The notes beneath the pieces are model-generated. The model was not told the origin of the DNA. It searched no databases and was given only the letters and a program-made list of their open reading frames with translations. DNA of 37,614 nucleotides from a virus: positions 1-37,614 of IMG/VR virus record IMGVR_UViG_3300035145_000392. One strand, 5' to 3'. Below are positions 5,182-21,856 of the stretch, piece by piece (the stretch's first letter is position 1; each line of letters begins with the position of its first letter). A program made the translations under genes and the position numbers.

Positions 5182-5224
5182 ATACAAGTAAATTGAATTG
5201 AACATCCTAATGAGGAGAAGACAT

Positions 5225-6181
5225 ATGTCACATGAATTAGAAATTATCAACGGTCAAGCACAAATGGCATACCGTGAATCCAAAGGTCGTCCATGGCATG
5301 GACTAGGTACACCAGTATCAGACGATATGACACCACAAGAAATGATGGTCGCTGCAGGTCTGGATTGGGAAGTCGAGAAAGTCGACACATTCTATCGTTA
5401 CAAAGGCGATAATCACGCAACAGGACAACAAGCACTAGTGCGTTCTAATGACGGTAAGATCCTTACCCAAGTAGGACCAGGCTGGAATCCTGTACAGAAC
5501 TCAGAAGCGTTTGAGTTCTTCACTGACTTCGTATCCAACGGTGATATGGTTATGGATACTGCAGGTTCACTGAAGGACGGTCAGATCGTCTGGGCACTTG
5601 CAGACGTTCAAGAAGGTTTTGATCTCTTCAATGGTGATGAAGTCAAAGGTTACCTTCTGTTCTCAAACCCTCACCAGTATGGTAAAGCAATCGACGTGAA
5701 GTTCGTAATGGAACGTGTCGTCTGCAACAACACATTGACTGTTGCATTGAACGAAAAAGGTATGCCTGGCGTCAAGATCAATCACCGTTCACAGTTTGAT
5801 CCAGAAATGGTGAAACAGACTCTTGGTATTTCACATCAACGTATTGAGAAGTTCAAAGAAGCTGCACAGTTCCTTGGTTCGAAGAACTACCAGAAACAAG
5901 AACTACACGACTTCTTGAAAACAGTCTTTGGTGAGTCCACCAAAGAAGGTAAAGAACTGTCTCGTACTGCAGAACGTGCACTAGAAGTTGTTGAGAACCA
6001 GCCTGGCGATCACTTCCGTCCTGGCACATGGTGGAATGCATACAATGCAGTCACCTACATGACAGACCACGAGTTGGGTCGTTCTGCAGACACTCGTATG
6101 ACTTCTGCATGGTTTGGTGTCAATGCGAAACGTAAAGTCGATGCGTTGAACGTTGCACTTGAATTTGCAGACGCTGCATGA
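5225..6181 (+). CDS. DUF932 phage/plasmid-like protein (TIGR03299 type)
   Basis: A 318-aa protein. The start is the ATG at 5225, preceded by a strong GAGGAG at 5212-5217; a TTG at 5198 in frame is rejected. The N-terminus carries Arg-Pro-Trp-His-Gly-Leu-Gly, the signature of the DUF932/TIGR03299 family found on phages and plasmids. The Phe-Val-Met-Glu-Arg-Val-Val-Cys-Asn-Asn motif and the later Thr-Trp-Trp-Asn-Ala-Tyr-Asn-Ala-Val-Thr motif are also family hallmarks. Its biochemical role is unknown. It has its own strong promoter and ribosome binding site, which suggests high early expression. A G6/C6 hairpin follows the stop. Confidence 0.85.
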   Translation: MSHELEIINGQAQMAYRESKGRPWHGLGTPVSDDMTPQEMMVAAGLDWEVEKVDTFYRYKGDNHATGQQALVRSNDGKILTQVGPGWNPVQNSEAFEFFTDFVSNGDMVMDTAGSLKDGQIVWALADVQEGFDLFNGDEVKGYLLFSNPHQYGKAIDVKFVMERVVCNNTLTVALNEKGMPGVKINHRSQFDPEMVKQTLGISHQRIEKFKEAAQFLGSKNYQKQELHDFLKTVFGESTKEGKELSRTAERALEVVENQPGDHFRPGTWWNAYNAVTYMTDHELGRSADTRMTSAWFGVNAKRKVDALNVALEFADAA

Positions 6182-6186
6182 GGATA

Positions 6187-6204
6187 GGGGGGATCATTCC
6201 CCCC
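6187..6204 (+). other. G6/C6 intergenic hairpin
   Basis: Six G (6187-6192), a six-base loop and six C (6199-6204) form a perfect stem between the DUF932 stop and the epimerase ribosome binding site. There is no T-run after it, so it is not a standard terminator. It could stabilise the DUF932 transcript 3' end or attenuate readthrough. Confidence 0.5.
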
Positions 6205-6224
6205 AAACTTATTATGAGGTAGAT

Positions 6225-6986
6225 ATGAGAGTCTTACTTACAGGGCATAAGGGGTTCATAGGAACTCATCTTCACCAAAGACTTAACGATAGTGGATATG
6301 AAGTCATTGGGATTGACTTGAAAGATGGGTGGGATCGTGATGGAATAAATAATTCACAAGACTTATACGATTGTCCCCTTCCCCAAAATGTTGATTTGGT
6401 AATTCACCTTGCAGGTAAGTCTGGTGTTCGTGAGAGCATGGATGATCCTGCAGGTTATTGGCGAAACAACGTAGAAGTCAGTAAACGGATCTTCAAACGA
6501 TATCCACGAACACGTGTGATGTATGCAAGTTCTTCTAGTATCTACGAACCAGAATTAAATCCCTACGCAGCGAGTAAACTGATTGTAGAAGAAGCTGCAG
6601 TAAGACATCCAAACAATCTAGGAATGAGATTCCATACAGTTTATTCTGGTCAACCACGTGAGGGTATGTTCCTTCAAAAACTTTTAGATGACGAACTAGA
6701 ATACGTCACAACACATAGACGAGATTTCATACATATAGAGGATCTATGCGATGCAATAGAACTTCTTATTGAAAATGCAATTGGTGGGTTCACTGATATT
6801 GGTACAGGTGATCCAGTCAAAATTTCAGAACTTGTGACTTGGAAGTCTCTTCCTGTCAGATTGACCACACCGAATGAACGTGAGTTTACTTGCGCTGATA
6901 TAACCAACCTAAAAGAGTTGGGTTGGTCACCACAACATGATGTGAGAGATATGATCTATGGTAACCAAAAGAACCGCACAGACTGA
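6225..6986 (+). CDS. NAD-dependent sugar epimerase/dehydratase (extended SDR)
   Basis: A 253-aa Rossmann protein starting at the ATG at 6225 after a GAGGT site; the upstream in-frame extension to 6153 lies in the DUF932 gene. It shows the Gly-x-x-Gly-x-x-Gly dinucleotide motif at residues 7-13, Asp31 for ribose binding, Leu-Ala-Gly at 62-64, catalytic Ser in the Ser-Ser-Ser-Ser run at 102-105, and Tyr114-x-x-x-Lys118. These are the signatures of NAD(P)-dependent epimerase/dehydratases acting on nucleotide sugars. It is shorter than the usual 300-340 residues, so part of the substrate domain is reduced. It may serve glycan remodelling together with the sugar module at 35.1-37.6 kb. The exact substrate cannot be told. 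Confidence 0.8.
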   Translation: MRVLLTGHKGFIGTHLHQRLNDSGYEVIGIDLKDGWDRDGINNSQDLYDCPLPQNVDLVIHLAGKSGVRESMDDPAGYWRNNVEVSKRIFKRYPRTRVMYASSSSIYEPELNPYAASKLIVEEAAVRHPNNLGMRFHTVYSGQPREGMFLQKLLDDELEYVTTHRRDFIHIEDLCDAIELLIENAIGGFTDIGTGDPVKISELVTWKSLPVRLTTPNEREFTCADITNLKELGWSPQHDVRDMIYGNQKNRTD

Positions 6987-7599
6987 TGTACGAGAAAAGT
7001 TTGATCGTGCACTTATACAAGAGATCTTAGAATTCCCAGGCGGTGCACTGTATGCAATTACGGTCCCTTTGAAGAATGGTCGGAACTTGATGTCATACTC
7101 GACTATGACTAGCGACTGGCATATTCTATATGACAGTAGATACAATGATACATCAAAACAGTGGGATAGTAAGGTTTCTTTGTGGAAAAGATGTCGTAAA
7201 GAAGCGGGACTATCAGAACGCATTCCGAAACTGACACAGAAAGTCTGGGACAAACTAGACGAAAAGTGGAAGAAAGATCTTGCGAACTCAAAACGCAGAG
7301 CGGCTGCAGCAGACAAAAAGATTGCTGCAGAGATGAAGAAACGTCAAGAGGAAGAAAAGTTACTTGCGGAAAAACTTGCAAAAGAAAAAGAAAAGGAACG
7401 TAAGGAACGTGAAAAGGAACTTGCACGGTTAGAGGCTGAAGAAGAAAAAGCGAAAAAGAAGAAAACTCGCAAACCTCGTAAAACCACCAAACCAAAAACC
7501 ACTCGTGCGACAACAAAATCAAAAACAACAGGTCGCAGAACTAAATGGAGAGACATGAAAGCAAAGATGGAGAAAGATACTCTTGATGCATTCATGTAA
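6958..7599 (+). CDS. Lysine-rich coiled-coil protein with histone-like tail
   Basis: A 213-aa protein whose ATG lies 29 nt inside the epimerase gene. Residues 1-105 form a compact domain with Trp and Tyr residues that I do not recognise. Residues about 106-168 are a highly charged helix (repeats of Glu-Lys-Glu-Arg-Lys-Glu) predicted to be a coiled coil. Residues 168-196 are Lys/Arg/Thr/Pro-rich (Lys-Pro-Arg-Lys-Thr-Thr-Lys-Pro-Lys), resembling histone H1-type or nucleoid-protein tails. The basic tail suggests nucleic acid binding; this is inference. A good AAGGAG follows at its stop for the next gene. Confidence 0.65.
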   Translation: MVTKRTAQTDVREKFDRALIQEILEFPGGALYAITVPLKNGRNLMSYSTMTSDWHILYDSRYNDTSKQWDSKVSLWKRCRKEAGLSERIPKLTQKVWDKLDEKWKKDLANSKRRAAAADKKIAAEMKKRQEEEKLLAEKLAKEKEKERKEREKELARLEAEEEKAKKKKTRKPRKTTKPKTTRATTKSKTTGRRTKWRDMKAKMEKDTLDAFM

Positions 7600-7608
7600 G
7601 GAGAGAAA

Positions 7609-7968
7609 ATGGCAATTATCCACAACCCAGTTGCAAATACAGAAGCAATTATAAATCATTTTTCTGATTGGAATACCACCGTAACTTATGTTTGCACGAG
7701 AGATCTATATCGTGCTGAAGAGGACATCAATATCCACGTAGATATTTTTCACCAATGGCCTAAAGATCCTGTCAAACTGAATACTTATTTTGGATATTGG
7801 AATGCAAACAATCAAGGATGGTACTGTGACGCAGATAACATCGAAGATTATACATTCGCAATGGTTCCGAATGCTAATGGAGACCTAGAATATTCTCAGA
7901 CAGACACCCCACTCACAGGCGATGTTCGTTATTACAGAATTTCTAATGGTGAATTTCAAGAAGTATGA
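7609..7968 (+). CDS. Hypothetical protein
   Basis: A 119-aa protein with start ATG at 7609 behind a clear AAGGAGAG site. It is rich in aromatic residues (Trp, Tyr), Asn and Asp with predicted beta strands and no membrane segment or signal peptide. No known motif is seen. It overlaps the next gene by ATGA, so the two are translationally coupled. Confidence 0.6.
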   Translation: MAIIHNPVANTEAIINHFSDWNTTVTYVCTRDLYRAEEDINIHVDIFHQWPKDPVKLNTYFGYWNANNQGWYCDADNIEDYTFAMVPNANGDLEYSQTDTPLTGDVRYYRISNGEFQEV

Positions 7969-8174
7969 AATATGCATTTATAGTAAATCTCACTGAAAAT
8001 AGTGAAGACAGAAGAGAAGATTACATCTATCTCACCGAACCCACAGGAAATGGGTTCGAAGTTAAACCCAAAATCTTTGACACCATTTACGAAGCCAGAA
8101 CAGAAAGATTGAAATGGAAACTCAACGAAAGTTGTCGTTATCACATAGTAGAAGTGCCATCAGATGACACTTAA
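7965..8174 (+). CDS. Small hypothetical protein
   Basis: A 69-aa soluble protein overlapped on both sides: ATGA with the gene before and 11 nt with the ClpP-like gene after. It has a beta-beta-alpha-beta appearance, with the helix containing Tyr-Glu-Ala-Arg-Thr-Glu-Arg. The function is unknown. Confidence 0.55.
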   Translation: MKYAFIVNLTENSEDRREDYIYLTEPTGNGFEVKPKIFDTIYEARTERLKWKLNESCRYHIVEVPSDDT

Positions 8175-8829
8175 CAAAGAGGAACTTTATTTGAAAAAGA
8201 AAAATGACATTTTAGATCTGTTTAAACCGCCGATCAATCAAAATCAACGAATGATCACAAAACAAGCAGTCAATATCCACGAGTTTTATCTTAGTGGTGA
8301 AGTCGAAAGTCCAGAAGAGTATATTGAATGGTTCGACACAATCCGTAATGCAAGTGAGAACGATGTTTTAAAATTTTATATCAACTCGCCAGGCGGGGAT
8401 CTATTCACTGCAATCCAGTTCATGCGTGTACTCGGTGACACAAACGGCAACGTAATTGTGTCAGTAGAAGGCGCATGTATGTCTGCAGCAACCCTGATCT
8501 TCTTGATGGGACACCAGTTCGAAGTATCATCACACTCTATGTTTATGTTCCACAACTATTCCAGTGGAGTTGTAGGTAAAGGTGGTGAAATGTATGATCG
8601 TCTTGTCCATGAAAAAGGATGGTCAGAAAAGTTGATGCGAGATGTTTATGCTGATTTCTTAACAGAAGAAGAGATCAGTGCTATCTTGAACAACAAAGAT
8701 ATTTGGATGGATGGCGATGAAGTTGTTAAACGTCTAAAGGATAAGATTGCAAAAATTGAGAGTGCAGAAAAAGAACAGGAAGAAGAAAAACCTGCACCGA
8801 AAAAAAGAGGTCGTCCACGAAAGTCATGA
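8164..8829 (+). CDS. ClpP-like serine protease with AT-hook-like tail
   Basis: A 221-aa protein of the ClpP/crotonase fold. The Asn-Ser-Pro-Gly-Gly-Asp segment (74-79) matches the ClpP oxyanion/substrate strand. Ser107 in Cys-Met-Ser-Ala-Ala-Thr is the nucleophile, His130 in Met-Phe-His-Asn-Tyr the base, and Asp179 or Asp183 the likely acid. ClpP normally needs an ATPase partner; a phage version may borrow host ClpA/X or act alone. It is not the head maturation protease, since a gp21 is encoded at 24912. After residue 200 the protein has an acidic-then-basic tail ending Lys-Lys-Arg-Gly-Arg-Pro-Arg-Lys, an AT-hook core (Arg-Gly-Arg-Pro). The tail is not part of standard ClpP. Confidence 0.85.
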   Translation: MTLNKEELYLKKKNDILDLFKPPINQNQRMITKQAVNIHEFYLSGEVESPEEYIEWFDTIRNASENDVLKFYINSPGGDLFTAIQFMRVLGDTNGNVIVSVEGACMSAATLIFLMGHQFEVSSHSMFMFHNYSSGVVGKGGEMYDRLVHEKGWSEKLMRDVYADFLTEEEISAILNNKDIWMDGDEVVKRLKDKIAKIESAEKEQEEEKPAPKKRGRPRKS

Positions 8830-9044
8830 CGGTACTTAAATGGTTATCAACTACACTGTTCTTGTGTGCAGGGTTGATATTAGCGTTGAACTTACCTTTC
8901 TCTAAGGTAGGTTTCATCCTTTTCTTTATTGGTCATATTGTGCTCTTGGGCGTGTTTGTACGTGCAAGAGACTGGCCAATGATTACACAAAATGGTTTCT
9001 TCATTCTGATAGATCTCATTGGGATCTACAGGTGGTTTTTATAA
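8826..9044 (+). CDS. Small membrane protein
   Basis: A 72-aa, mostly hydrophobic protein coupled to the ClpP-like gene by an ATGA overlap. Hydrophobic segments at about residues 5-22, 27-46 and 53-70 suggest two or three membrane spans, with Arg-Ala-Arg-Asp-Trp between the last two. The last segment has the pattern Gln-Asn-Gly-Phe-Phe-x(6)-Gly-Ile-Tyr-Arg-Trp. The function is unknown; its placement might suit a membrane partner of the protease. Confidence 0.6.
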   Translation: MTVLKWLSTTLFLCAGLILALNLPFSKVGFILFFIGHIVLLGVFVRARDWPMITQNGFFILIDLIGIYRWFL

Positions 9045-9054
9045 AGAGGAATAT

Positions 9055-10134
9055 ATGACTGAATTTATTTTTACAAGCGAAAGTGTAAGTGACGGACATC
9101 CAGACAAAGTTGCGGATCAAATCTCAGATGCATTGGTTGATGCAGGACTGAAGAATGGTGATGAGACAACTCGTGTTGCGGTAGAAACACTTGTAACTAC
9201 TAACCACGTGACGTTGGCGGGCGAAGTAAAAAACTTTAATGTCGGACCGTTGGATGTTAAACAAATCGTCCGTGATAAAGTAAAAGAGATTGGATATGAA
9301 CAAGATGGGTTCCATTGGGACAACTTGAAGATCTACAATGAAATCCATTCGCAGAGTGCAGATATTGCATTGGGTACGGATGATTTTGGTGCGGGTGACC
9401 AAGGGATCATGTTTGGTTATGCGTGTAACGATAACGATGCATTCATGCCTGCACCTATTCATTTTTCTCATGAAATCTTACGCAAACTGAAAACGATGCG
9501 TGAGGATGTATTGGGTCCAGATGCAAAATCGCAAGTGAGTGTCCAGTATGAGGGCAACAAAGTCAAACGGATTGATCAAGTCGTTATCTCAACTCAACAT
9601 GAAGAGGGAAAGATTAGTCAAGCGAAAAGTATCGCACATGCTGCTGCCAACTATGTACTAGGAGATCTTGTAGACGGAAATACTATATTCCATTTAAACC
9701 CTACTGGTAACTTTGTAATTGGTGGTCCAGATGGTGACGCAGGTGTCACTGGTCGTAAGATCATCGTCGACACTTATGGTGGTTATGCACCACATGGTGG
9801 CGGTGCGTTCTCTGGTAAAGATCCGACGAAGGTAGATCGTAGTGCTGCATACATGGCACGATGGTTGGCGAAGAACGTAGTCGCAGACGACATGGCAGAC
9901 TGGTGTCAGATTCAGTTGTCTTATGCAATCGGTGTAAAGGAACCCACATCAATCTACGTCGACAGTAACGGACACAATCGATCAATCGAACGCTTCATTC
10001 GAGAGAATATCGATCTGACTCCAAAAGGAATCATTGATAGATTTGATCTGTTCAATTTTACTGACTACAGCAAGAACTGTGTGTACGGACACTTTGGTAA
10101 CAAGGATGTTCCATGGGAAAAGATTGGATGGTAA
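9055..10134 (+). CDS. metK: S-adenosylmethionine synthetase
   Basis: A 359-aa protein aligning end to end with bacterial MetK (E. coli 384 aa). It makes SAM from methionine and ATP. Visible signatures are Ser-Asp-Gly-His15-Pro-Asp17-Lys, Gly-Ala-Gly-Asp-Gln-Gly-Ile-Met-Phe-Gly-Tyr (112-122), Gly-Gly-Pro-x-Gly-Asp (223-228), Thr-Gly-Arg-Lys (232-235) and Gly-Gly-Gly-Ala-Phe-Ser-Gly-Lys-Asp (248-256). All main catalytic and ATP-binding residues appear kept, so an active enzyme is likely. It is shorter at the flexible loop and C-terminus. Start chosen at ATG 9055 after AGAGGA; the in-frame extension to 9019 overlaps the previous gene. Possible SAM users in the window are the 20363 methyltransferase and the FkbM protein. 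Confidence 0.95.
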   Translation: MTEFIFTSESVSDGHPDKVADQISDALVDAGLKNGDETTRVAVETLVTTNHVTLAGEVKNFNVGPLDVKQIVRDKVKEIGYEQDGFHWDNLKIYNEIHSQSADIALGTDDFGAGDQGIMFGYACNDNDAFMPAPIHFSHEILRKLKTMREDVLGPDAKSQVSVQYEGNKVKRIDQVVISTQHEEGKISQAKSIAHAAANYVLGDLVDGNTIFHLNPTGNFVIGGPDGDAGVTGRKIIVDTYGGYAPHGGGAFSGKDPTKVDRSAAYMARWLAKNVVADDMADWCQIQLSYAIGVKEPTSIYVDSNGHNRSIERFIRENIDLTPKGIIDRFDLFNFTDYSKNCVYGHFGNKDVPWEKIGW

Positions 10135-10140
10135 AAAAAG

Positions 10141-10164
10141 TGAAAAAAATTTGATTTTTTTTCA
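10141..10164. other. A/T-only near-palindrome upstream of promoter
   Basis: A TGA7T arm at 10141-10150 pairs with AT8CA at 10154-10164 around a short loop, just after the metK stop. It is followed by A7-GG-CTTGACT of the next promoter. It may be a weak terminator for metK transcripts or an UP element; similar A/T palindromes precede the promoters at 17011 and 17678. Confidence 0.5.
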
Positions 10165-10173
10165 AAAAAAGGC

Positions 10174-10202
10174 TTGACTTTCTCTTGTAGAAGCATTATA
10201 TT
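10174..10202 (+). promoter_or_regulatory. Sigma70-type promoter
   Basis: TTGACT at 10174-10179 and TATATT at 10197-10202, 17-bp spacer, preceded by the A-tract A7GGC. It would drive 10237 to 11785. Confidence 0.8.
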
Positions 10203-10236
10203 ATATATGTAACGTGATGAGAAAGAGAGATTGACT

Positions 10237-10545
10237 ATGAATATGAACCAAGCGATTGAAAAACTTCTGACTGCAATCAAAGACGATTACCGTGAAGGTA
10301 GTTGGCAAGACTTCATGATCGAAAGATTTGAGAACGGACTGTCTTTTCAAGAAGGTCGTAAGTACATCAAAATTCTTAGTGGTGGAAGCGTTTGGGGTTT
10401 CATCGTCAAAGGCGAAGACAAAAAGTTCGCAGTTGGTGATATTCTGAAACCTGCGGGTTGGGCGACACCAACACGTAATGCAGCACGTGGTAACATCTTT
10501 GGTGATTACATCATCCGTTGGACTGGTCCTGAGTACTTGCGTTAA
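10237..10545 (+). CDS. Conserved-type phage hypothetical protein
   Basis: A 102-aa soluble protein. ATG 10237 is chosen because AAGAGAGA lies 6-7 nt upstream; TTG at 10231 and ATG at 10243 are alternatives. The second half contains Gly-Arg-Lys-Tyr-Ile-Lys-Ile, Gly-Ser-Val-Trp-Gly-Phe and Ala-Arg-Gly-Asn-Ile-Phe, then Trp-Thr-Gly-Pro-Glu-Tyr-Leu, a pattern I recall from marine T4-like phage small proteins. It is beta-rich. No function is known. First gene of the 10174 unit, so probably early. Confidence 0.65.
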   Translation: MNMNQAIEKLLTAIKDDYREGSWQDFMIERFENGLSFQEGRKYIKILSGGSVWGFIVKGEDKKFAVGDILKPAGWATPTRNAARGNIFGDYIIRWTGPEYLR

Positions 10546-10555
10546 GGAGTTCGTA

Positions 10556-10774
10556 ATGAATAGTGTTTTTAATTTTCCAAATATGATCATGTCTGTTATG
10601 ATAGGGTCGTTGATCTTCGTTCTATCTTACGCAGTTCTGTCTTCTGCAGAACTACCCGATGTTTGGTTCAGTTACTCTACTGGTGACTGCGTCAAGGTGT
10701 TGAATTACGCTGAGGGTGATACATACTCTTGCGAGAATATGCCTCCTCGTTATTATCATGTGTGGACTGAATAA
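10556..10774 (+). CDS. Membrane-anchored small protein with two Cys
   Basis: A 72-aa protein starting at ATG 10556 after AAGGAG; an open extension to 10478 overlaps the previous gene and is rejected. Residues 8-32 are a hydrophobic N-terminal anchor or uncleaved signal, so the C-terminal 40 residues probably face the periplasm. That part has Gly-Asp-Cys-Val-Lys-Val and Tyr-Ser-Cys-Glu-Asn-Met-Pro-Pro-Arg-Tyr, which could form a disulphide. The function is unknown. Confidence 0.6.
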   Translation: MNSVFNFPNMIMSVMIGSLIFVLSYAVLSSAELPDVWFSYSTGDCVKVLNYAEGDTYSCENMPPRYYHVWTE

Positions 10775-11061
10775 TGAGTAGAACAAAAAGAACATCAGAT
10801 TCGGATCTGTGGGAACAGAGTATTGCAGATAATCCATCGTACTACTCTGTCATTGCGTTCACTCCTCAAAAGGGAACTAGGTCAATGCCTGAGATCCCTA
10901 CATTTGAGGAAGCATATGAATACGCAAAAGAAGTTTTAACGCTTGACAATCGTGTCAGATCGTGTATGATATATGCAGTGAATGAATATCGAAACCATGC
11001 ACTTGTCGGTACGATAGGTAGACATGACTTACAATTCAAAGAAGTGGTGAGAAAAGTATGA
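10774..11061 (+). CDS. Hypothetical protein
   Basis: A 95-aa soluble protein sharing one base with the previous stop (TAATG) and overlapping the next start by ATGA. It looks alpha/beta, with Phe-Glu-Glu-Ala-Tyr-Glu-Tyr-Ala in a helix. No motif is recognised. A sigma70-like promoter lies inside its 3' half. Confidence 0.6.
   Translation: MSRTKRTSDSDLWEQSIADNPSYYSVIAFTPQKGTRSMPEIPTFEEAYEYAKEVLTLDNRVRSCMIYAVNEYRNHALVGTIGRHDLQFKEVVRKV
10943..10970 (+). promoter_or_regulatory. Possible internal sigma70 promoter
   Basis: CGC-TTGACA (-35 at 10943-10948) and TATGAT (-10 at 10965-10970) with a 16-bp spacer inside a coding region. It could give separate expression of the 36-aa protein and the 2OG oxygenase. 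It lacks the upstream A-tract of the intergenic promoters. Confidence 0.4.
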
Positions 11062-11168
11062 GTAACTATAATAAAGAATCAGTTGAACGTGCAATCAAGA
11101 CTTCACGCAAACCAATCTCTGGTAAAGAAGCTAAACTAATCCATGCATTGTTGAAAGGTCGGGGATGA
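11058..11168 (+). CDS. Tiny 36-aa basic protein
   Basis: A 36-codon frame linked by ATGA overlaps to both neighbours (11058-11061 and 11165-11168), a strong sign that it is translated. The sequence is Lys/Arg-rich and contains Lys-Pro-Ile-Ser-Gly-Lys-Glu-Ala-Lys-Leu-Ile-His-Ala-Leu-Leu-Lys. I recall this kind of short protein from T4-like marine phages. The function is unknown. Confidence 0.6.
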   Translation: MSNYNKESVERAIKTSRKPISGKEAKLIHALLKGRG

Positions 11169-11785
11169 GCGCAGCAGTATTTCGTGCATTCGGTACACCT
11201 CTTTACAGAGATAAAATTGCATTAGACAAGAAGATAATCAATCCTATCTTGTCGTCTATCGAACTACGCAGACTACCTTCCGATGATGGTTGGACTAGTG
11301 AAGATACATATGTTCTTGAAAATGATTTTGAGGTGTTAAAACCAATTGTCCAAAAACATTTGGACGATTTTGTATTCAATCATTTTAAACTTATGGACAA
11401 GTATGATGTTGAGATCCAAAATAGTTGGATAATGAAACATAAAAAGGGAGATCACTCTGCGTTACACTGGCACTCCAACAGTCTAATCTCTGGAATATTG
11501 TATTTACAAACAGACGATCATTCAGGAGATCTTGCATTTGTAAATCAATTGAATTGGTGTAACAATATGTTTGAATTTGATTACAAAGAAGATAATCCTT
11601 TGAATCAAAATACAGTAGTACATACACCACGTGATGGAGAAATTATTCTATTCCCATCAAAAACGTATCATACTGTTACCCCATCTCAATCAGATGATAT
11701 GAGATTCTGTCTAGCTTTTAATGCATTCATTCGTGGAGATGTTCAAAAACAATTTGAAAAAAGTATGTCACAATTAGTCTTGTGA
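11165..11785 (+). CDS. 2-oxoglutarate/Fe(II)-dependent oxygenase (TIGR02466 type)
   Basis: A 206-aa double-stranded beta-helix protein. It has His101-x-His103 in the Leu-His-Trp-His-Ser-Asn strand, then Ser-Gly-Ile-Leu-Tyr-Leu, a distal His169 in Phe-Pro-Ser-x(3)-His-x-Val, and Arg180 which would hold 2-oxoglutarate, followed by Phe-Asn. This is the layout of the TIGR02466 family of putative 2OG-Fe(II) oxygenases common in marine phages. The usual His-x-Asp is His-Ser-Asn here, so metal binding may differ. The substrate is unknown. It is the last plus-strand gene of its unit and converges on the minus-strand operon. Confidence 0.8.
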   Translation: MSAAVFRAFGTPLYRDKIALDKKIINPILSSIELRRLPSDDGWTSEDTYVLENDFEVLKPIVQKHLDDFVFNHFKLMDKYDVEIQNSWIMKHKKGDHSALHWHSNSLISGILYLQTDDHSGDLAFVNQLNWCNNMFEFDYKEDNPLNQNTVVHTPRDGEIILFPSKTYHTVTPSQSDDMRFCLAFNAFIRGDVQKQFEKSMSQLVL

Positions 11786-11935
11786 TTTACTTTTAAGAAG
11801 GTGTCCACTCCACAACCTCTCTTTCTCTCTTACTGTCGCTGGATTTGAATATCCAGTATGTGGGACAAAGTGGATACCTTCTTTTCTTATCTCTTCTTCG
11901 GTGTATTCAAACTGTACTAGATTCACCTTTTGCAT
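11774..11935 (-). CDS. Small 53-aa hypothetical protein
   Basis: A minus-strand ATG at 11935 opens 53 codons to a TAA at 11774, overlapping 12 nt of the convergent oxygenase gene. AAAGGCGATAGG lies just upstream. The peptide is charged, with Tyr-Thr-Glu-Glu-Glu-Ile-Arg-Lys-Glu-Gly and a centre with His-Thr-Gly-Tyr-Ser-Asn-Pro-Ala-Thr. It follows in line with the Cys-rich gene upstream and would be the last gene of the late operon. No function is recognised. Confidence 0.5.
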   Translation of the reverse strand: MQKVNLVQFEYTEEEIRKEGIHFVPHTGYSNPATVREKERLWSGHLLKSKSQD

Positions 11936-11947
11936 CCTATCGCCTTT

Positions 11948-12121
11948 CTATCTAAAATAACCATTCCAAGAGCGAGCGTCTGTCTCCTGTAGGGATGGTT
12001 TTTTTATTTCTTCCTTACAATCACATCTAGTGCATACATCGTTTACACAGTCTTTGCAGTCTGGTGCGTAACAATGACAATCATGACCACAACTCTTACA
12101 AGTTCTTTCTGGTCCGATCAT
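11948..12121 (-). CDS. Small Cys-rich (zinc-binding-like) protein
   Basis: A 57-aa protein with a strong GGAGG just upstream of its ATG. In residues 8-35 there are nine Cys and two His: Cys-x-x-Cys-Gly-His, Cys-His-Cys, Cys-x-x-Cys and Cys-x-x-Cys-x-Cys. Such density suggests one or two zinc clusters. The C-terminal 20 residues are polar. It sits 9 bp after the coiled-coil gene of the late operon. A plus-strand terminator hairpin is embedded in its last third. The function is unknown; the binding role is inferred from spacing. Confidence 0.65.
   Translation of the reverse strand: MIGPERTCKSCGHDCHCYAPDCKDCVNDVCTRCDCKEEIKKPSLQETDARSWNGYFR
11959..12005 (+). terminator. Rho-independent terminator inside an antisense gene
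   Basis: On the plus strand AACCATTCC (11959-11967) pairs with GGGATGGTT (11992-12000) with one G-T pair, and seven T follow. It would stop plus-strand transcripts that leave the oxygenase gene. The loop is long (24 nt). The same DNA codes for the C-terminal third of the Cys-rich protein on the other strand. Confidence 0.55.
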
Positions 12122-12130
12122 AGTGCCTCC

Positions 12131-12772
12131 TTAGTTTGCTAATGGATTGTCTAACGCCCTCTGTAGTTTAGAATTCAATTTTTGTTCTAGTTCGTTCAGA
12201 TCTCTTTCAACTTTACCTTCGAGATCAGTCATACGATTGTCGTTAGACTCTCTGAGTTGAGATGCTTTGTTGTCGTACTGATTCTGTAGTGCATCTCTTT
12301 TATTATCAAAACGTTCTTCTGCGTTTTGGATAATCTGTCTTACGTCCGCTTCTGTGTCACGAACTAGTTTTTCGACACGACGAACCTGCGAGTCCATTTG
12401 ATTAAGTTGATCACGAGTATCAACCTTGTTCTCACGGACACGTTTTTCTAAATCGTCAATTTGTTTTTGAATGGAATTAATTTGAACTTCGAGTTCTGAC
12501 TTGACGTTACCAACGAGAACTTCAATCTCATTGTTGCGAGTTTCAATCGCACCCACATCAATATTTTCTACAATCTCTTTCATTCCCATGTAATCATCAT
12601 ACACTTGGAATGCACCGTAGAGACCACCTATGATAGTACTGAGAATTGCAAACGCTGCACCAATTGTTGTTGGGGTCATTGTGATCCCAAACAACTTCAT
12701 CTTGGTGTTTTTAAGTTTCTCTACTTCTTCTTCGAAGTTTTCGGTGAGTTCACCGAGATCTTTGTCTGACAT
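12131..12772 (-). CDS. Membrane-anchored long coiled-coil protein
   Basis: A 213-aa protein using ATG 12772, with AAGGAA about 9 nt upstream; the longer in-frame form to 12844 has an extended overlap with the previous gene. Residues about 28-55 are a hydrophobic segment (Ile-Gly-Ala-Ala-Phe-Ala-Ile-Leu). Residues about 75-210 are an almost continuous charged coiled coil with heptads of Leu, Val and Ile. The short N-terminus before the membrane span is charged. The layout fits an inner-membrane protein with a long cytoplasmic or periplasmic rod. I do not recognise a family. It overlaps the small membrane protein before it by 52 nt. Confidence 0.65.
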   Translation of the reverse strand: MSDKDLGELTENFEEEVEKLKNTKMKLFGITMTPTTIGAAFAILSTIIGGLYGAFQVYDDYMGMKEIVENIDVGAIETRNNEIEVLVGNVKSELEVQINSIQKQIDDLEKRVRENKVDTRDQLNQMDSQVRRVEKLVRDTEADVRQIIQNAEERFDNKRDALQNQYDNKASQLRESNDNRMTDLEGKVERDLNELEQKLNSKLQRALDNPLAN

Positions 12773-13044
12773 TTTTCGAGTTCCTTGATACGATCTTCTA
12801 GTTCGTCGATCTTCTTTGTTACTTTCGGATAACGCTTTCGCCACGCTTCTGGGTCATCTTGTAGGAAGTCCCATCCAAAACGATCAACTAAATGATCCAT
12901 AGATCTATCAAATAAACTCATCAACCAAAGGGCTGCGTGTGTGTTTCTAAACCATGCAAGAAATGCGGCACCAATTAAAGATCCACCAATCGCTGTGTAA
13001 ATCCACAACGTATCGCCGAACATTCTTTGTACCATTTCCCACAT
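12721..13044 (-). CDS. Small membrane protein with C-terminal helix
   Basis: A 107-aa protein with an N-terminal hydrophobic span at about residues 14-33 (Ile-Gly-Gly-Ser-Leu-Ile-Gly-Ala-Ala-Phe). A region with Asp-His-Leu-Val-Asp-Arg-Phe-Gly-Trp and Asp-Pro-Glu-Ala-Trp-Arg-Lys follows, then a short coiled coil (about 78-92) and a Lys/Ser-rich end. ATG at 13044 comes one base after the lipase stop; in-frame ATGs at residues 4 and 8 are alternatives. Shape and position next to a lipase allow a membrane or lysis role, but nothing proves it. Confidence 0.6.
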   Translation of the reverse strand: MWEMVQRMFGDTLWIYTAIGGSLIGAAFLAWFRNTHAALWLMSLFDRSMDHLVDRFGWDFLQDDPEAWRKRYPKVTKKIDELEDRIKELEKCQTKISVNSPKTSKKK

Positions 13045-13045
13045 A

Positions 13046-13759
13046 TTAGTAGTCCAACTTCTTTGTTGCTTTTATGTAGTTAGGCATGTTGTGATCTGCA
13101 ACACTATCAAGAATTCCAGATCTCCAACCACGCCATCTATCTTTAAGTAATTGCCAACCTGTCATCTTACGGACATTACCGTAAAAGTTAATATACTGCA
13201 ATGTACCGTGATGTTTGTATCCCATCAATGCGAGTGGTACACGACATACGATATCGTTGTTATTAACGAATCTGTAGTGAGGTGTTGTAATGTTCTTTAC
13301 AAATTTACGTGTTCCTACTCGTGGAGAACCGAACGTAGTCAATTGATGTACTGGTCTGATCTCTTCTAGTCTGGATGCACAAATGGTTGCCATCGCTCCG
13401 CCTAGGGAGTGTCCAGTGATGTAGACACGTTTTCCTTCAGCGAATTCTTTGGAGTGTCTTAGAAGCGCAGCCCAGATTTTGTCTACCTCACCTTTGAAAC
13501 CTGAGTGGACTAGTCCATGTGTCATTGCGCCTGCAGGCCACGCATTTAGATCTGCAAGAACGTCTGATAGTTCATCTGGTTCTGTTCCTCTAAATGCAAT
13601 GACATATTCTTCTTTATTATATGCGACATGACATTGTGCGCCGTCATGTTCGAAGAATTTGTGATATGTGTATCCCAGAGACTTAACTGACTCTTTTGCT
13701 TCTTTCCCATCGAAATATGCAAGTGCGGCAAGTTGTGCCATTTTGTGACATACGGACAT
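13046..13759 (-). CDS. Class 3 lipase / alpha-beta hydrolase
   Basis: A 237-aa protein with the complete signature of class 3 lipases. The nucleophile elbow is Thr-Gly-His-Ser118-Leu-Gly-Gly; Thr-Phe-Gly-Ser-Pro-Arg-Val-Gly follows at 142-149; the acid is Asp169 in Asn-Asn-Asn-Asp-Ile-Val; the base is His223 near the C-terminus (Asp-His-Asn-Met-Pro). Arg-Gly-Thr at 57-59 is the usual oxyanion-region motif. There is no signal peptide, so it acts in the cytoplasm unless released at lysis or packed in the virion. It sits in a late operon behind four exported proteins and before two membrane proteins. AAGGAG lies 6-7 nt before the ATG. The substrate may be host phospholipid or another ester. Confidence 0.85.
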   Translation of the reverse strand: MSVCHKMAQLAALAYFDGKEAKESVKSLGYTYHKFFEHDGAQCHVAYNKEEYVIAFRGTEPDELSDVLADLNAWPAGAMTHGLVHSGFKGEVDKIWAALLRHSKEFAEGKRVYITGHSLGGAMATICASRLEEIRPVHQLTTFGSPRVGTRKFVKNITTPHYRFVNNNDIVCRVPLALMGYKHHGTLQYINFYGNVRKMTGWQLLKDRWRGWRSGILDSVADHNMPNYIKATKKLDY

Positions 13760-13768
13760 CTTTACTCC

Positions 13769-14203
13769 TTAGTTTTCGAACTGTTCTTCCACTGGTTGTT
13801 GTGCGTTCAATCTTCTCAAGGCGTTCAATTCTTCTTGAAGTTTTAATACTTCAAGTCTTTTCTTTCTCAGTTCTAATTCATAAAGAGTATTACAATTAAT
13901 ACGTTGTGCGGGTTTATCTAAAGGAATAGTAATCCTTGCATAAACACCAACATCTTTCTCAGAATCAAAACCTCTGTCACTACCAAATGGACTTTGTGCA
14001 TTGTTGATAACCCCAGTCAATCCAAACTCTAAATTAGTAGCACCACCAATAGAGTTTTGACAGTCAACACCATCTTGGGTTCGGATACTATCAGAACCAT
14101 ATGCACTTCCCATACCAGGCAAGGACAAGTTTAAAGAACTGGAATCTGCATGTGCAAATGTTCCAGTCATTAAAAAACAAAAGATCATCATATAATTTTT
14201 CAT
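13769..14203 (-). CDS. Exported hypothetical protein with C-terminal helix
   Basis: A 144-aa protein. ATG 14203 is chosen over an in-frame GTG at 14215 since it starts exactly at a Sec signal peptide: Met-Lys-Asn-Tyr, a hydrophobic core, and Phe-Ala-His-Ala before Asp. The mature part begins with Ser-Leu-Asn-Leu-Ser-Leu-Pro-Gly-Met-Gly and carries two Cys. A charged helix (residues about 108-135, Tyr-Glu-Leu-Glu-Leu-Arg-Lys-Lys-Arg) with heptads lies near the end. It would be periplasmic or outer-membrane facing. No known family is recognised. It shares the late operon with other exported proteins. Confidence 0.65.
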   Translation of the reverse strand: MKNYMMIFCFLMTGTFAHADSSSLNLSLPGMGSAYGSDSIRTQDGVDCQNSIGGATNLEFGLTGVINNAQSPFGSDRGFDSEKDVGVYARITIPLDKPAQRINCNTLYELELRKKRLEVLKLQEELNALRRLNAQQPVEEQFEN

Positions 14204-14211
14204 GGTATAAC

Positions 14212-14595
14212 TCACTTCTCAATGATCTTTGAACAAATCCGTGATGAAACGGCAGTTCTAGTTAAATCTTCTTTCCGCAATTTGGAACGTGAACAAATAT
14301 AAACTGCTTCCTTTGCGGATTCTTTTCTCATATAAATTTCAACAGTAACCGTACTCAAATACGGTATCTTCCATATCTTATATTTAGACACAAATGGGAT
14401 TGGTTTCCAGTCTTCGGTGAATACTGAAAACTCATAGTATTCTACTTCAGGCCGTTTATTAAACATAGTCATTGTAGTCATGACTAGATTTTCACCCATG
14501 TAAGATGGAACCAACTTTGGGTATGTTGGAACCATCTCATGTGCATGTGCATTAGTTGTAAATAATGCAAATAATAGTATTAACAAATATTTCAT
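14212..14595 (-). CDS. Exported Ig-like protein, possibly PapD-like
   Basis: A 127-aa protein with a clean Sec signal peptide (residues 1-18, ending Asn-Ala-His-Ala). The mature 109 residues are beta-rich. A Met-Thr-Met-Phe-Asn-Lys strand is followed by Tyr-Tyr-Glu-Phe-Ser-Val, Pro-Ile-Pro-Phe-Val, Ile-Pro-Tyr-Leu-Ser-Thr-Val-Thr-Val, and Val-Tyr-Ile-Cys-Ser-Arg-Ser. The order recalls the N-terminal domain of periplasmic pilus chaperones, but only one such domain would fit and the resemblance is weak. Two Cys could pair. Its neighbour at 14611 is pilin-like, which makes the idea more attractive. It could equally be an unrelated beta-sandwich. Confidence 0.6.
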   Translation of the reverse strand: MKYLLILLFALFTTNAHAHEMVPTYPKLVPSYMGENLVMTTMTMFNKRPEVEYYEFSVFTEDWKPIPFVSKYKIWKIPYLSTVTVEIYMRKESAKEAVYICSRSKLRKEDLTRTAVSSRICSKIIEK

Positions 14596-14610
14596 AATCT
14601 ACAATCTAAT

Positions 14611-15120
14611 TTACTGTGCGATACATTCAGCCGTTACAAGTGCGGTGTAGTTACCGCCTGGGAATGCTTTTGAACCACCCATGACTGCAGATGATGATGT
14701 CTTAAACCAAGTGGAACCAGTTGCAGTCATATCATAACGATCTGTCAGTCCTAGTTCTACTTTGTTTGTCTCATAATCGCCCATGTTGGTTGCATCACTT
14801 ACTGTATCAACTTCAGTATCGCCAGTCCACGCAACGATGTCTGGAAGATTTGGTGAAGATGAAAACTCAGTAGGTGGAGTGATTTCTACGTAGTATGCAT
14901 CTGCAAGAGATACATCTACACGAATACGTGCATCTTCCCCACCATCTGTAGAAGATGTTGTAAGGGTGTATGCGTTGGGGTTTGCGTAAGTACCTGCAGT
15001 GTCTGTTGTGATAATACAACGTGACTGCACTGTACCATTAATTGGTGTTTCCGATGCATTTGCAGAGATTACTGAACTCATTAACGCTCCTGCAACGAAG
15101 ATAGATAATTTTTTAAACAT
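14611..15120 (-). CDS. Exported pilin-like / spore-coat-U-like beta protein
   Basis: A 169-aa protein with a Sec signal peptide (Met-Phe-Lys-Lys, core, Ala-Asn-Ala-Ser). The mature chain begins with a strand holding Cys35 and ends with Phe-Pro-Gly-Gly-Asn-Tyr-Thr-Ala-Leu-Val-Thr-Ala-Glu-Cys. The two Cys near the ends, Thr/Ser/Gly-rich strands, and the Gly-x-Tyr-Thr-x-x-Val ending resemble chaperone-usher pilins and spore coat U proteins. No membrane span is found in the mature part. AGAGGT precedes the ATG at 15120. The role could be a surface or virion fibre; only the shape is seen. Confidence 0.6.
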   Translation of the reverse strand: MFKKLSIFVAGALMSSVISANASETPINGTVQSRCIITTDTAGTYANPNAYTLTTSSTDGGEDARIRVDVSLADAYYVEITPPTEFSSSPNLPDIVAWTGDTEVDTVSDATNMGDYETNKVELGLTDRYDMTATGSTWFKTSSSAVMGGSKAFPGGNYTALVTAECIAQ

Positions 15121-15136
15121 TAGTTTTACCTCTGTT

Positions 15137-16093
15137 TTAGTTTCCTAAGTTATATTGCGAGTCAACCATTTGTTGATGCAAAAGTTGTTGCGCCAATCCA
15201 TTTCTCAAACCTCTTTTGGAATCGGGCAACTGTTTGTCATTCAACGTTACTGTATCATTGTATACGCCGCCATCAATAGATTTTGCATAATAACTATTCA
15301 TATTAATCTGAACATTGTCTTTCAATTGAGACATTGCAAGCGCTTCTGCAAAAAGTGCTGCACGTCCTGCTTCAAAAAGTGCCTGTTCCAATCGCATTTC
15401 ACGGTCTTCCTTTTCCTCGTCTTCTAACTTCTGCCTTTCTTCTTCAGTTAGTTCGTCGTCTGAGGATTCCTCATCAATTTCTGCATACTCAACCATATCG
15501 GCATGTCCCGATGCAACTGCATCATATATTACGATATCAGATCCATCATAGATATCTGGTATCTGTAATTTGTAGCCAGGACAATTCGGATCGAACTGTG
15601 GATCATAACAGGGTTCTACACGATAAGTGTAAACCACATTAGTATCATATACAGATCCATCTCCTTCAACGTCGATTCCTCCGTCTCCGAATACATCCCT
15701 ATGTAACCTTCCCAATGGAACGATCTTTGTTACCTGTGTTCCCGCAAGACTGCCTGATTTCCAGTCGTCTCTTTCTCTGAATATATAACCAGTTCCGTCT
15801 GCATTCTCATTGTAGACATACACAGTAACCAAATCGTCCGTTTCTTTGTCTATCCTATACTGATATAGAACGTTGTCTATATAGACGCCTGGCGGGTCTG
15901 GAAGGATATCACCCATAGCCCACCTAAGCGCATTATCTGCTGCTGCATTCCCTGTATAACCGTAATAGGGAACAATACTCTCAGAGTAAGAGGAAGAGGG
16001 CCAACAGACCACCACCAATAACAGGAGCAGCCTGTTGAGGTGATTGGAACAACGGTCCCATTCCATCCAGTTCTTTTTGTGTCTCTTCGACAT
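15137..16093 (-). CDS. Large exported protein with acidic coiled coil
   Basis: A 318-aa protein with a long basic n-region and a hydrophobic core (Leu-Leu-Leu-Leu-Leu-Val-Val-Val) before Ser-Ser-Tyr-Ser, a Sec signal peptide. ATG 16093 gives a 22-residue n-region; ATG 16066 gives a more usual one, so the start is uncertain. The mature part has a Tyr/Asp/Gly-rich domain with a Cys pair (about 187 and 195), an acidic helix at about 215-240 (Glu-Glu-Arg-Gln-Lys-Leu-Glu-Asp-Glu), and a C-terminal region with Leu-Arg-Asn-Gly-Leu-Ala-Gln-Gln-Leu-Leu. Its first 113 nt overlap the previous gene in another frame. The function is unknown. Confidence 0.65.
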   Translation of the reverse strand: MSKRHKKNWMEWDRCSNHLNRLLLLLVVVCWPSSSYSESIVPYYGYTGNAAADNALRWAMGDILPDPPGVYIDNVLYQYRIDKETDDLVTVYVYNENADGTGYIFRERDDWKSGSLAGTQVTKIVPLGRLHRDVFGDGGIDVEGDGSVYDTNVVYTYRVEPCYDPQFDPNCPGYKLQIPDIYDGSDIVIYDAVASGHADMVEYAEIDEESSDDELTEEERQKLEDEEKEDREMRLEQALFEAGRAALFAEALAMSQLKDNVQINMNSYYAKSIDGGVYNDTVTLNDKQLPDSKRGLRNGLAQQLLHQQMVDSQYNLGN

Positions 16094-16553
16094 GTGTTTC
16101 CCATCCTAGTTTTGCTGCATCACCGATAGATCCGTTGTAAGGACAAGGTGTTCCAGCGTGCATCATTGCATCGAATACTTTTTCATCCTGACACATGACG
16201 GATACTGCAGCAACCTTCATGCCCATGTCATATAATACTTTTGCATTTTTTAAACGTTGACAGTTTTCTTCAGTGAATGTTCCACCCGCAGAGATACCAA
16301 GTATCTGAGTTTGAACTGCACCCGCAACACCAATAGTACACAGGTCACTATTGTTACCCGCACTAAACGATGGCGAAATTGCAGAAGGGGGTGGTTGGTT
16401 GATATTAGTTGTCATCTCACCATTAGTGGTGACAGTACTATTTGTATCCGATTTAGTACAAACATAACCCTCTGGACACTGAGCTTCTTGTGCGAGTACA
16501 GGAGAGGCGAACCCCATCAATAACACAACACACACGAACAGATATCTAAACAT
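15981..16553 (-). CDS. Exported Cys-rich protein with hydrophobic C-terminus
   Basis: A 190-aa protein. ATG 16553 with GGAG 8-9 nt upstream is chosen over an in-frame TTG at 16565. A Sec signal peptide ends Val-Leu-Ala-Gln. The mature protein has six Cys, likely disulphides, with Cys-Pro-Glu-Gly-Tyr-Val-Cys near the start. A Pro-Pro-Pro-Ser-Ala-Ile-Ser-Pro region and a C-terminal hydrophobic stretch of about 15 residues (Val-Ile-Gly-Gly-Gly-Leu-Leu-Ala-Leu) follow. That tail could be a membrane anchor. It is first in the late operon, 41 nt from a TATAAATA promoter. The family is not recognised. Confidence 0.7.
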   Translation of the reverse strand: MFRYLFVCVVLLMGFASPVLAQEAQCPEGYVCTKSDTNSTVTTNGEMTTNINQPPPSAISPSFSAGNNSDLCTIGVAGAVQTQILGISAGGTFTEENCQRLKNAKVLYDMGMKVAAVSVMCQDEKVFDAMMHAGTPCPYNGSIGDAAKLGWETHVEETQKELDGMGPLFQSPQQAAPVIGGGLLALFLLL

Positions 16554-16593
16554 AATATTCTCCAATTTAGAAAAGTCAATACACGATTACCTT

Positions 16594-16601
16594 TATTTAT
16601 A
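16594..16601 (-). promoter_or_regulatory. T4-type late promoter (TATAAATA)
   Basis: TATAAATA read on the minus strand, 41 nt before the ATG of the 16553 gene. No other late promoter was found down to 11774, so this one probably serves the ten-gene operon. Confidence 0.75.
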
Positions 16602-19049: not shown

Positions 19050-19138
19050 TGACTTTCAGTGAGCTCGTGGAAGAGTTGAAACGCCGTCAAGAAGAGGAAG
19101 AGAAACAAGAAAGGGAAACACAAAAGGAAGAGTCATGA
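19046..19138 (+). CDS. Tiny 30-aa charged helical peptide
   Basis: ATG 19046 opens 30 codons to TGA 19136, tied to both neighbours by ATGA overlaps. After Met-Thr-Phe-Ser-Glu-Leu-Val the peptide is a run of Glu, Lys, Arg and Gln, a single charged helix. Real translation is likely from the overlaps; the function is unknown. Confidence 0.45.
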   Translation: MMTFSELVEELKRRQEEEEKQERETQKEES

Positions 19139-19587
19139 TCGAAGTGGGTGATAAAGTATATGTGTGGGAAGAAGATAATTTCTTCGCACGTGAATGGGAT
19201 AACGTTATGGGCGATGTCGTGTCAGTCGATGGTCGTGACGTTGTAATTGATTCTATCATAGATGAGTGTCAGTACACATTTGATATAGATAGTGTTTATC
19301 TTGTTGGTACTGGTCCTATCATGAACACACGTATTACTGATTTTCCTGCCGATGAAATCTTTGAAGACATTCCCGACGATCCAGACAATGTGGTCATGAA
19401 AATTCCACGTCCTATTTGTGCTCAACTAGGTATTGACATTGGGGATGTTATTGTGGTAGAATCTGAAGGTGAAGGTTTGGTACTTCGTAAAAAAGAACCC
19501 GCATTCACAAAAGAGTATGAAGATGCTCGTGCGCAGGCTATTGAAGATACCGAACCATATGATCCAGATAATCCAGAGGGGTGTTGA
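19135..19587 (+). CDS. AbrB/MazE-like protein with N-terminal SH3-like segment
   Basis: A 150-aa acidic protein. Residues 86-119 (Val-Val-Met-Lys-Ile-Pro-Arg, Leu-Gly-Ile-Asp-Ile-Gly-Asp-Val-Ile, Gly-Leu-Val-Leu-Arg-Lys) match the swapped-hairpin SpoVT-AbrB fold of transition regulators and MazE antitoxins. Residues 1-58 resemble a KOW/SH3-like barrel (Val-Gly-Asp-Lys-Val-Tyr-Val). A Glu/Asp/Pro-rich tail follows 120. The AbrB hairpin commonly binds DNA as a dimer, so a phage regulator is one possibility. No toxin gene is visible beside it. Family recognition is by pattern only. Confidence 0.6.
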   Translation: MIEVGDKVYVWEEDNFFAREWDNVMGDVVSVDGRDVVIDSIIDECQYTFDIDSVYLVGTGPIMNTRITDFPADEIFEDIPDDPDNVVMKIPRPICAQLGIDIGDVIVVESEGEGLVLRKKEPAFTKEYEDARAQAIEDTEPYDPDNPEGC

Positions 19588-21191: not shown

Positions 21192-21389
21192 TTGACTCCT
21201 GCAGAACAAGCACAGAAACAAGCCGAAGAAGCAATGGATGGTTTCATCCTTTGGAGTAAACGAGCTACTCTGTGGTCAGCATTCTTTTTATGTCTAGTTG
21301 TATTTGCTTGCAATAGTGGAGTAGATGGAACTGGTAGTGGTTATAATGGCGAACAGTATGATCCAACAAACTTGAATGTAAAGGAATGA
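21192..21389 (+). CDS. Small putative lipoprotein
   Basis: A 65-aa frame from TTG 21192, one base after the previous stop. An ATG at 21234 would give a better lipoprotein signal: Met-Asp-Gly-Phe, Lys-Arg, a hydrophobic core and Val-Phe-Ala-Cys at residues 23-26 of that form. The Cys is followed by Asn-Ser-Gly and a Gly/Tyr/Asn tail. Neither start has a strong ribosome binding site. A short lipoprotein may sit in the inner or outer membrane. Outer-membrane spanin or exclusion roles are possible but unproved. Confidence 0.5.
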   Translation: MTPAEQAQKQAEEAMDGFILWSKRATLWSAFFLCLVVFACNSGVDGTGSGYNGEQYDPTNLNVKE

Positions 21390-21856
21390 GAACAAAAGAT
21401 TTCACCGATCAATCATTTTGTTGGCGAGGACTTGACGATTTTAACGTGAGAAGATGGGAATCGCTCTACAAAAAATACCAATCTGAAAATCCTGAACTCG
21501 TTGAAATATTTTCAGTAGATCACGAAAATGGATTTTTTACTATGGAAGATATAAATGGATTTGTTCTATCGGACACTCTACGTGTTAGAGATCTTGAAAT
21601 ATCAGAAAAAAGAAAGATCACAACGGATGTTATAGTATTATGGGGTAAGATGCAAAGTTGGTCAGTTGATGGACAAAAGGTATTTGTTCATAGAGATTAT
21701 TGTATTAATAATATAATGTATGACGTTGATAGGAAACATATAAAATTAATCGATCCAGATTCTTTTTGTTATGACTATCCCCATATGATGACTCCTAGAT
21801 GGCATGGGACTTTCATAGATACTATTTACAATATGAGAAACTGGGAGTTTGTTTAA
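21386..21856 (+). CDS. Small kinase-fold / phosphotransferase-like protein
   Basis: A 156-aa protein with His102-Arg103-Asp104, Asn108 or Asn109, and Asp123-Pro-Asp125, spaced as the catalytic loop and metal-binding motif of protein-kinase-like and aminoglycoside/choline kinase folds. The Trp-Gly-Lys helix before it fits the C-lobe. No clear Gly-rich loop or Lys strand is seen in the short N-terminal part, so ATP binding may be degenerate. ATGA overlaps on the left and TAATG on the right. Activity is uncertain; similarity rests on the motif spacing. Confidence 0.6.
   Translation: MRTKDFTDQSFCWRGLDDFNVRRWESLYKKYQSENPELVEIFSVDHENGFFTMEDINGFVLSDTLRVRDLEISEKRKITTDVIVLWGKMQSWSVDGQKVFVHRDYCINNIMYDVDRKHIKLIDPDSFCYDYPHMMTPRWHGTFIDTIYNMRNWEFV

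Follow-up and report, generated by a model that had tools for sequence, protein, structure and literature searches.

Locus and conserved core of the cassette

We analyzed a 37.6-kb virus record (IMG/VR IMGVR_UViG_3300035145_000392, positions 1 to 37,614; "the window" below means this entire stretch) with respect to a late cassette of genes for exported proteins. The cassette consists of ten consecutive minus-strand open reading frames (ORFs), named p01 to p10, which extend from 16553 to 11774 downstream of the octamer TATAAATA. Matches to the major head protein, portal, sheath, and terminase identify the source phage as T4-like, and the closest relatives of its capsid protein are those of the Methylophilales phage Melnitz and Sinorhizobium phages (69%).

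Related loci were gathered by a scan with p03, which yielded 56 viral loci, and by a p05 profile, which found at least 551 IMG/VR stretches, of which 80 were kept. After the removal of near-identical copies, 82 distinct loci remained; four of the pooled loci come from bacterial assemblies. The presence of a gene was counted only in loci long enough to hold it. Under this rule p01, p02, p03, p04, and p08 were found in every locus, though the loci counted are those most closely related to the query and more distant ones may therefore differ. The order and strand of p01–p05 are constant; unrelated gene orders, which had been named beforehand as speaking against the original prediction, were not encountered. 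The remaining genes, p06, p07, p09, and p10, are optional and vary in order. The conserved unit is thus composed of six genes, p01-p02-p03-p04-p05 and p08, and the operon as initially proposed holds as ten genes behind one promoter but not as ten conserved members. The promoter and the core genes are as follows (lengths in amino acids, aa; pLDDT, predicted local distance difference test; Ig, immunoglobulin):

16594–16601, minus strand: T4-type late promoter octamer TATAAATA, 48 nucleotides (nt) before the p01 ATG
15981–16553, minus strand: p01, 190 aa, phrog_20531 (8.6e-14; alignment), 71/71 loci
15137–16093, minus strand: p02, 318 aa, 73/73 loci
14611–15120, minus strand: p03, 169 aa, exported, predicted Ig-like and pilin-like (model pLDDT 85.7; Foldseek), phrog_25895, 78/78 loci
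14212–14595, minus strand: p04, 127 aa, exported, single-domain (model pLDDT 84; Foldseek; VIA), 79/79 loci
13769–14203, minus strand: p05, 144 aa, phrog_37374 (6.6e-11; alignment)
12131–12772, minus strand: p08, 213 aa, 62/62 loci

The preferred starts are 16553 for p01, 14203 for p05, and 12772 for p08. Both the octamer and the ten ORFs can be read directly in the window, as had been claimed. In 42 out of 52 loci TATAAATA occurs in the 150 nt preceding p01, compared with 2.8% of random 150-nt stretches, so its position is not a matter of chance. Upstream of the inner genes p02–p08 it was found in one case only.

The proposal that the first five proteins are exported is supported. Signal-peptide-like N-termini were called (with a simple home-made scan, not SignalP) in p01–p05 of the window and in nearly all homologues: 41/42, 44/44, 44/44, 45/46, and 44/45, respectively. 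No lipobox was seen by eye in any of the five (no lipoprotein predictor was used). The cassette genes are under purifying selection, with a ratio of nonsynonymous to synonymous substitution rates (dN/dS) of about 0.05–0.26 where not saturated.

A megablast of the region against phages gave no match. A bacterial origin of the cassette was rejected, because the p05 profile matched only four sequences in 84,980 prokaryote genomes, all of them metagenome-assembled contigs, and contamination is likely in one genome. That assembly, "Rhodobacteraceae bacterium Water_Bin34" (loci L145 and L147; genome G010), contains nine matches to T4-type major head proteins, and phage contigs were therefore probably binned with it.

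Predicted folds of p03 and p04

The original prediction had described p03 as pilin- or spore-coat-U-like and p04 as PapD-like. Structure prediction indeed gave beta-sandwich folds for both proteins (Foldseek, VIA).

The clearer case is p04. Its top Foldseek matches are the chaperones FaeE, DraB, and Caf1M (E 3e-4, probability 1.00), and VIA-align gives Z 8–9.4 over about 97 residues, covering residues 5–116 of FimC/PapD, i.e., the N-domain only. The p04 homologues are 116–135 aa long, and p04 lacks the second chaperone domain. We can thus predict with good confidence that p04 is the N-terminal domain of a PapD-type chaperone on its own. A CsxA domain scores slightly above the chaperones (Z 10.2) and MSP domains are similar, so this statement concerns the fold. 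In a viral fold library p04 had one clear match, a 133-aa protein, and otherwise general Ig folds. Two of its cysteines, C101 and C121, do not vary across 41 sequences and, judging from the predicted strands, could join the last two strands of the domain as in Caf1M. FGL chaperones such as Caf1M possess an F1/G1-type cysteine pair.

The assignment of p03 as an Ig-like and pilin-like protein is less clear. The best Foldseek matches of its predicted Ig-like sandwich include FimF, FimG, the PapG pilin domain, CsuE, and CsuA/B. These matches are weak (E 2e-3 to 5e-2), are mixed with staphylococcal adhesins, and reach a VIA-align Z of at most 7.2. The N-terminal segment of p03, which has low model confidence and lies outside the predicted fold, carries invariant residues at positions 27, 29, 31, and 35 and a nearly invariant one at 33, with variable residues between them. 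This alternation looks like a donor strand, which is a resemblance and not proof.

Neither protein matched PapD_N (PF00345) or SCPU (PF05229) in a Pfam scan, and hhalign comparisons of p03 and p04 with small sets of bacterial PapD_N and SCPU members were null, as was a tblastn search of p03 against phages. The PapD likeness of p04 therefore stands at the level of the N-domain fold but not of sequence profiles. For p03, pilins are among the best fold matches but with weak scores and adhesins mixed in, and membership of the spore-coat-U family was not supported.

Other proteins of the cassette

The p01 protein combines a signal peptide with a conserved domain carrying four invariant cysteines (72, 98, 121, and 137) and a short hydrophobic C-terminal tail. 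A signal peptide is followed in p02 by a conserved domain, an acidic coiled stretch, and a conserved C-terminus. The p02 gene begins before p01 has ended; the two share at least 62 nt in all 53 measured loci and exactly 62 nt in most. In the window (15981–16093, minus strand) the DNA for the hydrophobic tail of p01 also encodes the signal peptide of p02 in another frame. The exported p05 combines a conserved domain, in which three acidic/Cys motifs are invariant or nearly so, with a C-terminal helix. Searches of PDB sequences with profiles of p01–p05 and of Vibrio p03 and p04 found nothing significant.

The sixth core protein, p08, has one N-terminal membrane segment (hydrophobic 36–54) and then a long coiled coil, a layout shared by most of its homologues. 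Together with the hydrophobic segment in p07, this agrees with the two membrane/coiled-coil proteins reported initially. The optional genes are:

13046–13759, minus strand: p06, class 3 lipase (PF01764), 237 aa, 18/57 loci
12721–13044, minus strand: p07, 107 aa, hydrophobic segment followed by a coil, 21/55 loci
11948–12121, minus strand: p09, 57 aa, Cys-rich, tblastn matches in 16/56 loci
11774–11935, minus strand: p10, 53 aa, tblastn matches in 4/56 loci

The class 3 lipase named in the original prediction was confirmed: it scores 81.6 bits against Lipase_3 (PF01764; 6.4e-23, cut-off 22) and contains GHSLGG, an instance of GxSxG. It has no signal peptide. Like p07 it occurs in about a third of the loci and hence is not a fixed part of the cassette.

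The position of the cassette varies. In the window 6–7 kb separate it from the capsid gene; in a 119-kb relative the distance is about 10 kb, and in two larger relatives about 77 kb and 112 kb. Beside it, on the plus strand (5198–11785), are possible host-metabolism genes for a DUF932 protein, an NAD-dependent epimerase, a ClpP-like protease, an S-adenosylmethionine synthetase, and a 2OG-Fe(II) oxygenase. Elsewhere on the plus strand, weak matches were found to a phosphotransferase family (APH; 21386–21856, 1.2e-5) and to a MazE-type antitoxin domain (19135–19587, 4.2e-5, just under its cut-off).

Relatives in other phages

The p03-p04-p05 trio is not limited to marine T4-like phages. In each of the seven Vibrio phages examined, profiles of the three proteins from the window clade match three consecutive genes whose order is the same (p03, 5e-9 to 2e-3; p04, 1e-6 to 0.1; p05, 9e-13 to 4e-9); the T5-like pVp-1 and a member of the Queuovirinae are among these phages. 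Comparison of mature-region profiles between the window clade and Vibrio gave 94.5% for p03, 33% for p04, and 98.4% for p05, versus less than 1% for non-matching pairs. The link for p04 is the weakest by sequence and hence rests also on gene position.

The trio in Vibrio phages is preceded by two large genes of fibre-like architecture. In unrelated Vibrio phages (L153:99-6055, L155:1148-6049, and L061:2515-6651) a large phrog_10818 gene lies upstream and a small lipoprotein gene, phrog_16916, downstream. A gene of 770–860 aa beside the trio was considered as a candidate usher and rejected, as it has no signal peptide, belongs to phrog_10818, and has no PF00577 in its record.

In Klebsiella, Erwinia, and other large phages, homologues were detectable for p05 alone. 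In the following Erwinia/Klebsiella neighbourhoods, exported-looking genes of about 115 and 165 aa stand on either side of the p05 homologue, and one of the two ends in ICS...C like p04:

L149:3643-4866
L150:3643-4893
L151:3517-4789
L157:4631-5942
L158:2637-3934

Profile comparison detected no sequence homology of these flanking genes to p03 or p04. A first match to the neighbours in jumbo phages (61%) was dismissed because signal peptides alone give 64%, and their homology to p03 and p04 was unsupported once signal peptides had been removed. The main text of the Klebsiella Kp24 paper gives no virion proteomics of these genes.

In the Pelagibacter/Roseobacter-type phages HTVC115P, CRP-207, and ctXG6705, p01 and p08 recur together with a long gene between them, and Mosig has p01, a long gene, and a marginal p08 match. 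Homologues of p02 were undetectable in Pelagibacter phages (E 0.26), which share the position alone. Two annotations in these phages are likely mistaken: the "putative lysozyme" CRP207_gp73 (L062:3292-3873), which matches the coiled-coil profile of p08 (1e-6), and the "transport protein tonB" of ctXG6705 (L060:6227-7333), which occupies the position of p02.

Usher and curli pore

The original prediction had stated that no usher is present. In agreement with this, the usher family PF00577 was found in none of 19 records, comprising nine deposited phage genomes and IMG/VR records of which several are fragments, and was detected in the E. coli control. The curli pore CsgG (PF03783) was absent from all nine cassette-bearing records. 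It is present in Melnitz and HTVC008M, both of which lack p05. In this small sample, the cassette and CsgG have not yet been seen together.

Possible function

We put the probability of the anatomy described here, a module that is late, exported, and usher-less and contains a PapD-type N-domain, at about 0.75. Our best reading is that this module is phage-specific, envelope-targeted, and built from fibre-assembly folds. A release-linked function for the whole is more tentative, and we estimate it at roughly 0.35.

PapD-type chaperones fold their subunits by lending a beta strand. By analogy, p04 may fold or stabilize p03 in the periplasm via strand complementation. With the second domain missing from p04 and no usher detected, p03 would not be threaded out by a classical usher and might remain in the envelope together with p01, p02, and p05. 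The p08 protein would sit in the inner membrane by its anchor and extend its coil into the periplasm, a layout which, going by topology, appears to be that of an inner-membrane spanin. Late in infection, the assembly could then change the envelope of the host and would most likely aid rupture and the release of progeny, and the lipase, where present, would act after holins open the inner membrane.

In favour of this reading are the late promoter placed before p01 alone, the co-conservation of the six genes, the predicted folds and conserved residues of p03 and p04, and the failure to find an usher. The surroundings of the homologues are in part consistent with such a role. In Mosig a GTA-type holin with three transmembrane segments (3TM; PF11351, over cut-off) precedes p01. 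In ctXG6705, p01, the long gene, and p08 are followed by a holin-like gene and a lysozyme gene, and in pVp-1 a T holin (PF11031, 1.6e-46) and an endolysin follow the trio. Among 45 long marine loci, 30 have a holin-like gene or an endolysin gene no more than 8 kb away (no matched background); because of this and the weak support for the holin-like families, proximity to lysis genes is suggestive only. Several observations weigh against a role in release. The other 15 of these loci have no lysis gene nearby, and the holin-like families in marine loci are below cut-off (PF11351, 0.0039; PF07332, 0.012). Head and tail genes surround the trio in the Vibrio phages K251 g3 and vB_VhaS-tm, with the lysis genes lying elsewhere, and in Klebsiella/Erwinia phages no annotated lysis gene lies beside the homologue. 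Furthermore, no o-spanin-type lipoprotein was recognized in the cassette and no holin or endolysin among the window proteins scanned.

Release-linked remodelling of the envelope is slightly ahead of surface shielding, a close rival that is likewise tentative. Here p03, with p05, p01, and p02, would form a shield or fibre on or under the outer membrane that blocks further adsorption, keeps progeny off debris, or makes cells stick together. The pilin-like p03 with its donor-strand-like N-terminus would suit this role, as would the place of the Vibrio trio after two large fibre-like genes and before a small lipoprotein and the separate occurrence of CsgG and the cassette. There are also precedents in T5 Llp (PMC9586334) and in the curli of T4-like relatives (PMC9599517, PMC9004378). 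On the other hand, with no usher and no other outer-membrane pore recognized, such a structure has no known route to the surface. The cassette genes are late, unlike exclusion genes, which are usually early, and the large Vibrio genes belong to phrog_10818, which has no assigned function. At its most far-reaching, the cassette might represent an usher-independent pilin/half-chaperone machine, a phage-only envelope structure assembled by donor strands late in infection, which unrelated phages infecting marine bacteria, Vibrio, and perhaps enterobacteria have in common and which has no bacterial counterpart; we regard this as possible but less likely than not.

It is less probable still that the Ig folds are a coincidence and that p03 and p04 are unrelated small periplasmic beta-sandwich proteins with another role, e.g., sugar binding or envelope sealing. 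The weak and mixed matches of p03, the likeness of p04 to CsxA and MSP domains, and the null profile tests would all be expected in that case. Yet two separate predictions suggested partner folds from a single pathway for adjacent genes, p04 aligns along the full length of the chaperone N-domain and ends where that domain ends, and p03 and p04 occur together in unrelated phages. Least probable of all is that the proteins form part of the virion's decoration or assist the maturation of tail fibres. While the late promoter would agree with a virion part, as would the structural genes near the cassette in the window and the fibre-like ones near the trio in Vibrio phages, the signal-peptide-like N-termini of nearly all homologues direct the proteins to the periplasm, and tailed phages assemble in the cytoplasm.

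There are so far few models of how phages, at the end of infection, breach or remodel the outer membrane, or of how they control the infected cell's surface. The cassette suggests an undescribed viral way of remodelling the host surface before release, and it offers a chaperone-subunit pair that lends itself to testing, along with a gene order that is conserved. If our reading is true, lytic phages use pilus-assembly folds without an usher, and the function-less families phrog_20531, 25895, and 37374, which recur in marine and Vibrio phages, gain candidate roles. The set is widespread, with p05 alone in over 550 IMG/VR stretches, and its proteins are mostly unannotated in the phage records examined.

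Comparison with known systems

A phage pilin/half-chaperone module was not found described in the literature, in a search that covered few subscription journals. Several known systems share individual traits with the cassette. Like spanin and holin/endolysin modules, it is expressed late, often has lysis genes nearby, and includes in p08 a putative inner-membrane anchor with a coil that may lie in the periplasm. Unlike a spanin pair, it has six strictly conserved genes and no recognized lipoprotein partner.

Llp of phage T5 adjoins a receptor-binding gene and blocks re-infection (PMC9586334). The Vibrio trio with its lipoprotein is similar in that small exported proteins stand beside genes of the fibre/receptor-binding type; the window cassette, by contrast, is multi-protein, has a late promoter, and contains no recognized lipoprotein.

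Pelagiphages and Melnitz carry genes of curli (type VIII secretion system, T8SS), i.e., they are marine T4-like phages with envelope or fibre genes that their hosts lack (PMC9004378, PMC9599517), for which a role in exclusion or sibling capture was proposed (PMC9599517). The cassette likewise brings envelope or fibre-assembly genes into marine T4-like phages, but its bearers have no CsgG and its folds are unrelated. It is not curli.

A parallel is also offered by chaperone-usher pili (Fim/Pap, FGL Caf1, archaic Csu). As in these, an exported Ig-like protein, here with a less clear likeness to pilins, is encoded next to an exported one that has the PapD N-domain fold, and the cysteine pair of p04 may be comparable to the F1/G1 pair of Caf1M. 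The cassette differs in its one-domain chaperone, the missing usher, the lack of PapD_N/SCPU profile matches, its four further conserved genes, and its confinement to phages. By definition it is not a chaperone-usher system, since both an usher and a two-domain chaperone were looked for and neither was found, but it may work partly like one.

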